The notes under the pieces were generated by a model. That model saw only the letters and a program-made list of their open reading frames with translations, had not been told where the DNA came from and made no database searches. A stretch of DNA of 64,000 nt, from assembly GCF_900637975.1 (NCBI RefSeq), contig NZ_LR134477.1, positions 992,001-1,056,000 on the forward strand, in the 5' to 3' direction. This document shows positions 51,563 through 57,296 of this stretch, piece after piece (the stretch's first letter is position 1; each line of letters opens with the position of its first letter). Both the position numbers and the translations under genes were made by a program. Origin of the DNA: Actinomyces viscosus (GTDB lineage Bacteria > Actinomycetota > Actinomycetes > Actinomycetales > Actinomycetaceae).

Positions 51563-52621
51563 ATGACTAATAATCCAGATCCTCCCACCAAACTCATCCG
51601 CAACTCCACCGCCGAGTTCCTCATCTTCACCGCCCAAGACGGTGATTCCAGCATCGAGGCACGCTACGAGGATGAGACGATCTGGCTAACGCAGCGCCTG
51701 ATGGCCGAGCTGTTCGACGTGGACGTGCGCACCATCAGCGAGCACCTCGGGAACGTCTTCTCCTCCGGCGAGCTGGAGCGTGAGGCAACTATCCGGAAAT
51801 TCCGGATAGTTCGATCCGAGGGCTCACGCCAAGTGACACGCAGCATCGACCACTACAACCTCGACGCCATCATCTCGGTGGGCTACCGCGTCAACTCGGT
51901 GCGCGCCACCCAGTTCCGCCAGTGGGCTACTAGCGTGCTGCGCGACTTCGCCATCCGCGGCTACGTCATCGACCGCCAACGTATGGAGAACGGCACCTTC
52001 CTGGGCGAGGACTACTTCGAGCGCCTGCTTGATGAGATCCGCGAGATCCGCCTGTCCGAACGTCGCTTCTACCAGAAAGTTACCGACATCTACGCCACCA
52101 GCATCGACTACAACAAGGACGCCCCTACCACCAAGCGCTTCTTCGCCACCGTCCAGAACAAGCTCCACTACGCCGTCCACGGCCACACCGCCGCCGAGCT
52201 CATCACCTCCCGTGCCAGGGCCGACCAGCCCCACATGGGCCTGACCAGCTGGGCGAACAGCCCAGACGGCAAGATCCTGCGCGGCGACGTGACCATCGGC
52301 AAGAACTACCTCACCCGCGACGAGCTCGAAGACCTCGGCCGCCTGGTCAACGCCTTTCTTGATCTGGCCGAGTCCCGTGCCCGCCGTCAGATCCCCATGA
52401 CGATGGAGGACTGGGCCACACGCCTCGACGCCTTTCTCGACCTGGACGACCGCCAGATCCTCGACAGCGCAGGCCACATCTCCAAAGCCCAAGCCGACGA
52501 CCATGCTCTGAGTGAGTTCGAGAAGTTTCGCATTATCCAGGACCGCAATTACGTCAGCGACTTCGATCGGCTGGAGCAGCAGGCAGCGCAGCAACCCGGC
52601 AGAGATGCCAAGCAGGAGTAG
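51563..52621 (+). CDS. RhuM-family protein
   Basis: A 352-residue member of the RhuM (Fic-associated/virulence-labelled) family. The N-terminal DNA-binding-like domain reads IWLTQRLMAELFDVDVRTISEHL, IRKFRIVRSEGSRQVTRSID and AIISVGYRVNSVRATQFRQW, then AELITSRARADQPHMGLTSW and ITVGK-like IGKNYLTRDELEDLGRLVN. RhuM proteins recur in defence and mobile islands; their activity is unknown. Composition returns to high GC after its first codons. Confidence 0.88.
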   Translation: MTNNPDPPTKLIRNSTAEFLIFTAQDGDSSIEARYEDETIWLTQRLMAELFDVDVRTISEHLGNVFSSGELEREATIRKFRIVRSEGSRQVTRSIDHYNLDAIISVGYRVNSVRATQFRQWATSVLRDFAIRGYVIDRQRMENGTFLGEDYFERLLDEIREIRLSERRFYQKVTDIYATSIDYNKDAPTTKRFFATVQNKLHYAVHGHTAAELITSRARADQPHMGLTSWANSPDGKILRGDVTIGKNYLTRDELEDLGRLVNAFLDLAESRARRQIPMTMEDWATRLDAFLDLDDRQILDSAGHISKAQADDHALSEFEKFRIIQDRNYVSDFDRLEQQAAQQPGRDAKQE

Positions 52622-52675: not shown

Positions 52676-53200
52676 TCACCCCTGCGCCGTCGCCAGATGC
52701 TTCTTGACCGTATCCCGCCCAAAGCCGAGCTCCAGCCCGATCTCGATGTAGGTACGCCCCTGGGCGTGGAGCTGCTGGGCACGTTGGAGATCATCGCTGG
52801 TGAAGCGTCGCCTGCGACGGGGCGGTTGCGTGGCCTGGCGGCAGGTAGCACGGACGGTGGTCTCTGCGACACCGACCTCGGCAGCGATCTGGCTGACAGA
52901 CATGGCCGTGCGGGCCATATCGAGGATCTGCTGCTTCTTTGCCGCGCTGACCGGACGGCAGGCCATGTTGCGGACGCCGCGGGCTGTCGGGGTCTCGCTC
53001 GCCTGCCCAGTAGGCGCTACGCTAGCCGTACTCGGTTCCGGAGCCACTTCACCCGCGATGAGATGCTTGCGGAAGGCGAGCAGGGGCTTCCAGTTGTTTG
53101 TGTCGAGCTTGCTGAAGCGCACCACAGCATCGCTATACAAACCCTCACCCTGAGAAACAGCCCCCGTAGCCGTCTCAGCCGAGGCTGGCCGCCCACCCAC
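52676..53200 (-). CDS. Protein with two helix-turn-helix segments, intact copy
   Basis: A 174-residue protein whose C-terminal half holds SAAKKQQILDMARTAMSVSQI followed by AAEVGVAETTVRATC and, later, GRTYIEIGLELGFGRDTVKKHL, two Hin/resolvase-like helix-turn-helix units. The N-terminal half (KLDTNNWKPLLAFRKHLIAG) is not recognised. The GTG start at 53200 lies inside the 367-base repeat, so this copy keeps its whole coding region and only 64 bases of its former upstream DNA before the IS1634-type element. Confidence 0.7.
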   Translation of the reverse strand: MGGRPASAETATGAVSQGEGLYSDAVVRFSKLDTNNWKPLLAFRKHLIAGEVAPEPSTASVAPTGQASETPTARGVRNMACRPVSAAKKQQILDMARTAMSVSQIAAEVGVAETTVRATCRQATQPPRRRRRFTSDDLQRAQQLHAQGRTYIEIGLELGFGRDTVKKHLATAQG

Positions 53201-53264
53201 CTCCCGTTGACTCAGTTCTTGTCCGACTGTGTGCGGGTCCCATCATTGAGAGTCGCTCACAGCG
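52898..53264. repeat. Left copy of a 367-base direct repeat flanking an IS
   Basis: Identical by eye to 54933-55299, offset 2035. It abuts the left terminal repeat of the IS1634-type element exactly, so it is a target duplication. It contains the start and N-terminal 101 codons of the helix-turn-helix gene. Confidence 0.92.
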
Positions 53265-54932
53265 CCTGACTTGGCTCATTGCGGGGTGGTTGGGTCGCTG
53301 GGGGTGTGGTTGTGGTTGGGATTGTGCGGGTTGCGTGGGTGGGGGTGCGCACTAACGTGGGGGTATGAGTCCGTACGTTCGCGCGGTCAGGACGGCGTCG
53401 GGGGCCCGTGCGGTGCAGATCGTGTACTCCTCCCGCAAAGGAGCCCGCAGCATCGAGCACATCGGCTCAGCCCATGACGATGCTGAGCTGGCGGCGCTTA
53501 AGGAGGTCGCCAGGCAGCGTCTCAACGCTGGCCAGCTCAGCCTTGACCTGCCGGGCCTGAACGGTACGGACGTCGGGGGAAAGGGACCGCAGGCGCTGGC
53601 TGGGGCCGGGCGCGTAGCGCCGATCACCTCCAACCGGATGGGAGTGCTCCTGGAGACGCTGGAAGCGGCTTGGAAGGCAGTGGGCCTGGACGGGCTCGGT
53701 GGTGCTGACGAGGTCTTCCGCCAGCTCGTTACCGCCAGGCTGATCGAGCCGACCAGCAAGCAGGACTCCCTGCGGGTCCTGGCCGAGGCAGGTCTGACGC
53801 CGGTGTCCTACGCCACGGTCAAGCGTCATCTGCCCCGCTACGCCGCTGAGGAGTTCACCCGGGGCCTGTCGCGCCTGCTGGCCGGACGCGCCCGCATCGA
53901 CCGGGCCTCGCTGGTCCTGTTCGACGTGACGACCCTGTACTTCGAGACCGACAAGGCCGACGGTTTCCGCGAGCCAGGCTTCTCGAAGGAAAGACGCCTG
54001 GAGCCGCAGATCACGGTAGGGCTGCTCACCGACGAGACCGGGTTCCCTCTACGGGCCGAGGCCTTTGAGGGCAACAAGGCCGAGACCGCCACCATGATCC
54101 CGACGATCAACGACTTCATGAACGCCTACAACCTCGACGACGTGGTGGTCGTCGCCGACGCCGGGATGATCAGCGCCGCCAACAAGCAGGCCCTGGAGGC
54201 AGCCGGCCTGTCTTACGTGCTGGGCTCACGCACCTCACGCGTCCCCCACGTGATCAGCTCCTGGCACGACAACCACCCCGACCAGGACGTCCCCGACGGG
54301 CTGACCCTGACCCAGCCCTGGCCCGCCGGAGCCAGCGACCAGCGCCGTGACGAGACCATCTACTACCGCTACAGCGCCGACAGGGCCCGACGCACGCTAC
54401 ACGGGATCGACACCCAGGTCGCCAAGGCCGAGAAAGCCGTCGCAGGAAAGATCCCCGTCAAACGCAACCGCTTCGTGCACCTGTCCGGCGCCACCAGGAG
54501 CATCAACCGCGACCTGGAGACACGGGCCCGGACCCTGGCCGGGTGGAAGGGATACGTCACCAACCTGCCCAACCCCGACCCCGAGACGGTCATCGGTGCC
54601 TACCACCGCCTGTACAACATCGAGAAGTCCTTCCGCATGTCCAAGTCCGACCTGAGAGCACGCCCCATCTACCACCACCTGCGCCAGTCCATCGAGGCCC
54701 ACCTGACCATCGTCACCGCCGCCCTGGCCATGGCCCGATGGCTGGAGAACACCACCGGCTGGTCCATCAGACGCCTGATCACCACCAGACGCCTGATCAC
54801 CACCGCCCGCCGCTACCGCACCATCACCATCAACATCACCGGACACACCCTCACAGCCGCCGCCCCACTCCCACCCGACCTCATCCAAGCCCTCAACAAC
54901 ATCCACCACGACACTAAATGAGCCAACTCAGG
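53265..54932 (+). mobile_element. IS1634-family insertion sequence, complete
   Basis: The 1668-base element has 16-base ends CCTGACTTGGCTCATT (53265-53280) and, inverted at 54917-54932, CCTGAGTTGGCTCATT, one mismatch. It encodes one intact transposase whose stop codon lies in the right repeat. It is flanked by a perfect 367-base direct repeat. Long, variable target duplications are a known property of IS1549 and IS1634. Confidence 0.93.
53365..54921 (+). CDS. IS1634-family transposase
   Basis: A 518-residue DDE transposase with catalytic residues at Asp187 (VLFDVTTLYFETD), Asp265 (VVADAGMISA) and Glu420 (YHRLYNIEKSFRMSK). The IS1634/IS4-type YREK-like signature is RLYNIEKSFRMSKSDL. An exact 18-base tandem duplication (54769-54786 and 54787-54804) doubles RRLITT near the C-terminus without changing frame. 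The copy looks functional. Confidence 0.92.
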   Translation: MSPYVRAVRTASGARAVQIVYSSRKGARSIEHIGSAHDDAELAALKEVARQRLNAGQLSLDLPGLNGTDVGGKGPQALAGAGRVAPITSNRMGVLLETLEAAWKAVGLDGLGGADEVFRQLVTARLIEPTSKQDSLRVLAEAGLTPVSYATVKRHLPRYAAEEFTRGLSRLLAGRARIDRASLVLFDVTTLYFETDKADGFREPGFSKERRLEPQITVGLLTDETGFPLRAEAFEGNKAETATMIPTINDFMNAYNLDDVVVVADAGMISAANKQALEAAGLSYVLGSRTSRVPHVISSWHDNHPDQDVPDGLTLTQPWPAGASDQRRDETIYYRYSADRARRTLHGIDTQVAKAEKAVAGKIPVKRNRFVHLSGATRSINRDLETRARTLAGWKGYVTNLPNPDPETVIGAYHRLYNIEKSFRMSKSDLRARPIYHHLRQSIEAHLTIVTAALAMARWLENTTGWSIRRLITTRRLITTARRYRTITINITGHTLTAAAPLPPDLIQALNNIHHDTK

Positions 54933-55235
54933 AGACATGGCCGTGCGGGCCATATCGAGGATCTGCTGCTTCTTTGCCGCGCTGACCGGACGGCAGGCCA
55001 TGTTGCGGACGCCGCGGGCTGTCGGGGTCTCGCTCGCCTGCCCAGTAGGCGCTACGCTAGCCGTACTCGGTTCCGGAGCCACTTCACCCGCGATGAGATG
55101 CTTGCGGAAGGCGAGCAGGGGCTTCCAGTTGTTTGTGTCGAGCTTGCTGAAGCGCACCACAGCATCGCTATACAAACCCTCACCCTGAGAAACAGCCCCC
55201 GTAGCCGTCTCAGCCGAGGCTGGCCGCCCACCCAC
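54933..55235 (-). pseudogene. Truncated copy of the helix-turn-helix gene
   Basis: The right repeat contains the start codon (55235) and first 101 codons of the gene at 52676-53200, identical up to MARTAMS. The frame then runs into the IS end. This copy has the native upstream region but no helix-turn-helix units. Confidence 0.85.
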
Positions 55236-55299
55236 CTCCCGTTGACTCAGTTCTTGTCCGACTGTGTGCGGGTCCCATCATTGAGAGTCGCTCACAGCG
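54933..55299. repeat. Right copy of the 367-base direct repeat
   Basis: Second copy of the target duplication. Beyond 55299 the sequence differs from that after 53264, because the original chromosome continues here while the left copy continues into the IS. Confidence 0.92.
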
Positions 55300-57220: not shown

Positions 57221-57296
57221 TGGTGGACCCGGCCGGACTCGAACCGACGACCGACGCGGTGTAAACGCGTTGCTCTACCAACTGAGCTACAGGTCC
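57221..57296 (-). tRNA. tRNA-Val(UAC) with encoded CCA
   Basis: Cloverleaf on the minus strand: acceptor GGACCTG with CGGGTCC (one G-U), D arm GCTC-AGTTGGTA-GAGC, anticodon stem ACGCG/CGCGT around TTTACAC giving anticodon UAC, and T arm with GGTTCGAGTCC. CCA is encoded at 57223-57221. Confidence 0.95.

Follow-up and report, generated by a model that had tools for sequence, protein, structure and literature searches.

An IS1634-family insertion sequence of Actinomyces viscosus that makes both 5-bp and long target duplications

One and the same insertion sequence (IS) of Actinomyces viscosus makes both 5-bp and long target duplications, the 5-bp repeats lying mostly at palindromic targets and the long ones mostly at targets that fit on one half. 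Wherever a complete pre-insertion site was found, it was single copy. From the bases at the insertion boundaries, we consider that split-target insertion, in which the two IS ends would join two separate sites, is probably the best explanation of the long repeats. The ordinary 5-bp duplications and the target signature at the boundaries both go beyond an earlier sequence-only reading of the window (the whole 64,000-nucleotide stretch of DNA analyzed here), which had described one copy of the IS between two long repeats.

The element and its 367-bp repeat

The features of the window that bear on the insertion are the following:

52676..53200, minus strand: helix-turn-helix ORF, 174 aa, kept open via the left duplication copy
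52898..53264, no strand: 367-bp target duplication, left copy (A site, first five bases AGACA; B site, last five bases CAGCG)
53265..54932, plus strand: IS1634-family insertion sequence, 1668 bp, called from its terminal inverted repeat boundaries, the exact flanking repeats, and NCBIfam NF033559
53265..53280, plus strand: left terminal inverted repeat, CCTGACTTGGCTCATT, with a 15/16 match to the right end
53365..54921, plus strand: transposase ORF, intact, 518 aa
54764..54799, plus strand: 18-bp imperfect tandem duplication (17/18) within the transposase gene
54813..55235, minus strand: second copy of the 5′ end of the helix-turn-helix ORF (right duplication), running on into the IS
54917..54932, minus strand: right terminal inverted repeat, CCTGAGTTGGCTCATT (reverse complement)
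54933..55299, no strand: 367-bp target duplication, right copy

The two flanking stretches are identical over 367 bases, as the sequence-only reading had claimed, and the match ends exactly there on both sides. An exact repeat of this kind adjoining both ends of a complete IS is no chance event; it is the product of the IS insertion. The claim of a complete 1668-base IS adjoining both repeats was likewise borne out, and the transposase ORF is intact. The 16-bp terminal inverted repeats that had been described are present but not perfect, being identical at 15 of 16 positions.

The earlier assignment to the IS1634 type also held, with the transposase scoring 366.4 bits against NCBIfam NF033559 (IS1634 family; cut-off, 100) in a profile search, and its scores with the six other IS models listed for it were all below their cut-offs. 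The candidate catalytic residues, picked by eye, are D187, D265, and E420. Both the window protein and the IS4 family proper (IS10, IS50) are DDE transposases with the Y..x...E......K arrangement, but the YREK motif of the window protein is incomplete, with Y413, E420, and K427 in place and L416 replacing R. According to the available text of PMC2266710, this R is mostly missing in the IS1634 family, whose ends read C-----YT, and the subgroups of IS4 duplicate 7-13 bp. The ends of the window IS agree with this consensus (CCTGACTT / CCTGAGTT), and the host copies, at 1668 and 1650 bp, lie within the family length range of 1500-2000 bp. The longer version is found in 3 host copies and the shorter in 8, the difference being 18 bp, and the frames are open in both versions (five copies scored). 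No solved structure matched the window transposase sequence at E 0.01, and a search for the clamp motif, in its simple form only, found none in this protein. The closest named full-length relative of the IS is from Actinomyces oris, at 83% over the best segment. The window element is a recently inserted, intact member of the IS1634 family.

The helix-turn-helix ORF at 52676-53200 is still open because the left duplication copy carries its 5′ end together with 64 bp upstream. Long duplications are of consequence to the host in this respect, since one of them can keep open a gene that would otherwise be cut by the insertion. Inside the duplication, a 79-bp segment (53119-53197) has second matches in several Actinomyces genomes and at 670715-670793 of the host. 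Just left of the insertion there is a RhuM-family gene (PF13310; window 51563-52618), which also matches the PADLOC candidate defense family PDC-S05 (527 bits), and a tRNA-Val gene (anticodon tac; window 57221-57296) lies 2 kb to the right.

Duplication lengths and empty sites

The host genome, a single contig of 3.49 Mb, contains 11 full copies of the IS. Measuring the repeats that flank the other copies, a check proposed by the sequence-only reading, gave direct repeats at all 11 copies, ranging from 5 to 367 bp, i.e., 367, 25, 85, 5, 5, 181, 35, 129, 77, 21, and 83 bp for L001 to L011, the last with one mismatch. Two copies have 5-bp repeats (TAGGA and TATGA), and nine have long ones (21-367 bp), which are all different in length and sequence.

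IS-free relatives carry the target in single copy, in line with the target duplication that had been claimed. For 5 of the 11 host sites, an unduplicated site was found in relatives across both boundaries:

L003, 85-bp repeat: one relative, 77%
L004, 5-bp repeat: one relative
L005, 5-bp repeat: one relative
L006, 181-bp repeat: 11 relatives
L010, 21-bp repeat: five relatives

At L006, the nearest relative, G036, was aligned over 241 bases with no gap. At the window site, the left boundary is contiguous in nine relatives (left only) and the right boundary in one other relative, G036 (right only, 77%); each boundary is intact in different relatives, and a whole empty allele was found in none of the relatives compared. 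The remaining five host copies gave no two-boundary match in the genomes searched. One of the host copies, L002, has in its left flank a segment of ~50 bp with matches at dozens of sites scattered over Actinomyces genomes, which represents an interspersed repeat.

The wider survey comprised 134 copies with two recognizable ends, each insertion being counted once. Rows without two recognizable ends (21 + 5, some of them duplicates) and partial transposases were dropped before counting, and a Mycoplasmopsis gallopavonis copy (43 bp), a Geobacillus copy (5 bp), and L123 (5 bp) stand outside the sample. The repeat was 5 bp long in 18 copies, 6 bp in one, and 11-976 bp in 80 (median, 80.5), with 1-4 mismatches in 9 of these 80; no repeat was found in 35 copies, some of which could be deletion-type outcomes. 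Sorted by identity to the window transposase, there were 2 short, 11 long, and 2 without a repeat at 70% or more; 0, 29, and 12 at 55-70%; 0, 6, and 5 at 45-55%; and 16 short plus the 6-bp one, 34 long, and 16 without a repeat below 45%. Nine near-complete genomes, none in more than four contigs (G000, G030, G027, G049, G076, G242, G160, G326, and G620), provided 46 copies for which both ends and sufficient flanking sequence were available, with 15 repeats of 5-6 bp, 29 long ones, and 2 copies without a repeat (L150 and L162) by hand tally. Deletion-type outcomes thus number at most 2 among these 46.

Repeat lengths from 6 to 20 bp were rare (6, 11, 14, and 20 in the survey and one of 19 outside it). 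A single length class was rejected for this reason, and the 5-bp and long repeats look like separate classes. An odd repeat length as a rule was also rejected; all 11 host lengths are odd, but this is probably chance, since the wider set has just 48 odd lengths among 80. Five IS1634-family elements of ~2.83-2.9 kb in Kibdelosporangium, Actinomadura, and Amycolatopsis (L017, L021, L038, L047, and L083) have an extra 1.2-kb segment left of the old inner IS end and hardly differ between genera in the 500 bp that were compared. Their left end was set ~1.2 kb further out, and the five elements re-called in this way carry repeats of 14-49 bp.

Target bases at the boundaries

At both boundaries of the long repeats, the five repeat bases next to the junction show an excess of T at position 1 and of A at position 5. 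Most long-repeat boundaries lack T or A, and only 24 of 80 on the left and 22 of 80 on the right have both in the exact 5-bp register; the 24 other offsets gave 2 of 80 on average and never more than 5. The boundaries of the window copy, AGACA and CAGCG, fit the motif poorly. The enrichment extends to the half that was not joined: in 32 of 60 insertions the left site has A at its position 5 (p 4e-10), and in 24 of 60 the right site has T at its position 1 (p 2e-5). The test was repeated on 20 insertions outside these 60, consisting of 13 from newly searched genomes, the five re-called ~2.9-kb elements, the truncated L075, and one distant Persicobacter copy. The T...A pair was present in 7/20 on the left and 7/20 on the right, and the unjoined half had A in 10/20 left sites (p 0.0009) and T in 7/20 right sites (p 0.04).

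The two length classes differ in target symmetry. The palindrome YCNGR was found in 13 of 18 5-bp targets but in 7 of 160 long-repeat sites, a contrast that comes mainly from more distant elements because only 2 of the 18 short-class sites belong to elements at least 55% identical to the query. For the same reason, the comparison was also made within genomes in which both classes occur. Among the sites of G027, G076, and G242, 14/14 halves of 5-bp sites had the inner base versus 6/20 unjoined halves of long-repeat sites (p 4e-5), and the addition of G000 gave 16/18 versus 7/38. Three long-repeat sites in the both-class genomes are full palindromes joined by one end only, and the same is true of all 7 fully palindromic sites among the 160. 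Across the long-repeat sites, the inner base was found in 81/160 joined halves and 41/160 unjoined halves (p 3e-5), and on the unjoined half its count of 37 falls slightly below the 48.8 expected from local composition (p 0.04). On the other hand, YC on the joined half is also weaker in the long class (65/160 versus 30/36 in 5-bp sites, p 4.5e-6), and long-repeat sites may therefore simply be poorer targets overall.

Neither helical phasing nor scanning accounts for the distance between the joining points. Rayleigh tests of the 80 lengths at 10.0, 10.5, and 11.0 bp gave p values of 0.73, 0.38, and 0.28, on which helical phasing was rejected; on the first 60 lengths, the best period between 9.5 and 12 came out at 10.7 (p 0.06, uncorrected for the scan). 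This lack of periodicity argues against a rigid loop. Site-like 7-mers were as frequent inside the duplicated interval as outside, with no depletion between the used sites, indicating that the second end is not simply taking the next available site, and scanning to the next acceptable site was rejected.

Split-target insertion and its rivals

In split-target insertion, the transposase would capture a target in which T and A form a pair at a spacing of five bases, and one IS end would be joined to a half that fits (Y-C when read from the side of joining). Were the other half fit as well, making a YCNGR palindrome, the second end would join there and 5 bp would be duplicated; a single fixed-stagger cut explains this class. 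If that other half were unfit, the second end would instead join a different half-fit site, on the opposite strand and at a distance of tens to hundreds of bases. With the nicks offset in the usual 5′-overhang sense, synthesis from the two target 3′ ends, through either strand displacement or an assembled replication fork, would copy the interval and leave a long direct repeat, while nicks with the opposite offset would give no simple insertion. That only the duplicating offset would produce a simple insertion fits the count of 29 long duplications versus at most 2 repeat-free copies. According to the available part of PMC4549789, the transposase of an IS1634-family element in Acidiphilium binds the sliding clamp, which makes a link to host synthesis plausible. 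It is an even call whether split-target insertion is a normal outcome, the choice between one-site (5-bp) and two-site (long) joining being decided by how well each half of the 5-bp target fits.

A variable duplication could also arise if one opened region, such as a replication gap, a transcription bubble, or an R-loop, were attacked by both ends, the two strands being cut hundreds of bases apart while single-stranded and then filled in. This would yield duplications only, and the clamp binding reported in the available part of PMC4549789 would suit it. However, it does not predict a T...A pair in 5-bp register at each boundary, unjoined side included, nor does it tie 5-bp repeats to palindromic targets. 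Moreover, with dnaA (2.684 Mb) taken as the origin and the terminus as the opposite point, we worked out by hand that 5 of the 11 host copies run with the fork and 6 against it; an effect of replication-fork orientation was rejected on these counts, whose power to reveal a bias is low. We regard the opened region as unlikely. Quite unlikely, too, is the entry of the two ends into two sister chromosomes behind the fork at different positions. It shares with split-target insertion the prediction of a separate target site at each boundary, but the duplication expected in one order would be matched by a deletion in the other, and equal numbers are hard to reconcile with 29 long duplications and at most 2 repeat-free copies (one-sided binomial ~2e-7, by hand).

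The same equality of deletions and duplications would be expected if two ordinary 5-bp insertions, close together and in the same orientation on sister chromosomes, were followed by crossing-over between the IS copies. Complete target sites would then lie at both boundaries, and a T...A pair is indeed enriched at both; however, full palindromic sites should have been left behind and were seen in 7/160 only, and two independent insertions within a few hundred bases would be required at 9 of 11 loci, which makes this course very improbable. It is hardly conceivable that the repeats are older than the arrival of the IS or are an assembly artifact, and no support for either was found. At 5 of 11 sites, relatives have a single copy that spans the two boundaries, e.g., over the 241 gap-free bases of G036 in the 181-bp case, so that pre-existing repeats are refuted at the sites with a complete empty site. 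In addition, the long host repeats all differ from one another in length and sequence, and the same pattern was found in many other assemblies.

Long repeats are known from IS1549 of Mycobacterium smegmatis and IS1634 of Mycoplasma mycoides, for which the available text of PMC2266710 gives 8-514 bp, variable from copy to copy, with no model proposed as of 2008. The sequence-only reading, which had attributed the long repeats of these elements to an unexplained mechanism, agrees with this text. No later mechanistic model for long repeats was found in searches of one open-access library, from which most subscription papers are absent. Like these two elements, the window IS has an IS1634-family transposase and long direct repeats that vary between copies (the nine host lengths of 21 to 367 bp given above), but unlike them as described in the available text of PMC2266710, it also gives 5-bp repeats, and its relatives reach 976 bp. 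The boundary signatures are described here for the window IS and its relatives, IS1549 and IS1634 being compared through that description. The same text gives AT-rich direct repeats of 5-6 bp as typical of the family, with long ones in the two founding elements. The long repeats of nine host copies match these founding elements, the typical form fits a minority, 2 of the 11 host copies having 5-bp repeats, and the 5-bp sites of the relatives are mostly YCNGR and not AT-rich. Similar in size to the window IS and belonging to the same family, but with short repeats only as far as the available parts of the sources go, are ISGka5 of Geobacillus (6 bp; PMC8024623), the Geobacillus plasmid copy (5 bp, ATTTT), and Acidiphilium IS1634-1 to -3 (PMC4549789), for which we took three 6-base sequences, given under the legend "inverted repeats," as target repeats. 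None of the repeats seen for these elements resembles YCNGR.

The window IS is a further case of the long-repeat behavior of IS1549 and IS1634, the mechanism of which is now testable. The survey yields the prediction that a palindromic 5-bp target, once one of its halves is broken, should give a duplication of tens or hundreds of base pairs in place of 5 bp. In textbooks, DDE transposition is recognized by target duplications of fixed length, to which IS1549 and IS1634 form an exception. If split-target insertion is true, the length of the duplication would be set by the symmetry of the target and the distance to the second site, not by a fixed stagger. Such a rule would be new for DDE transposition and would answer a question that dates back to the description of IS1549 and IS1634.
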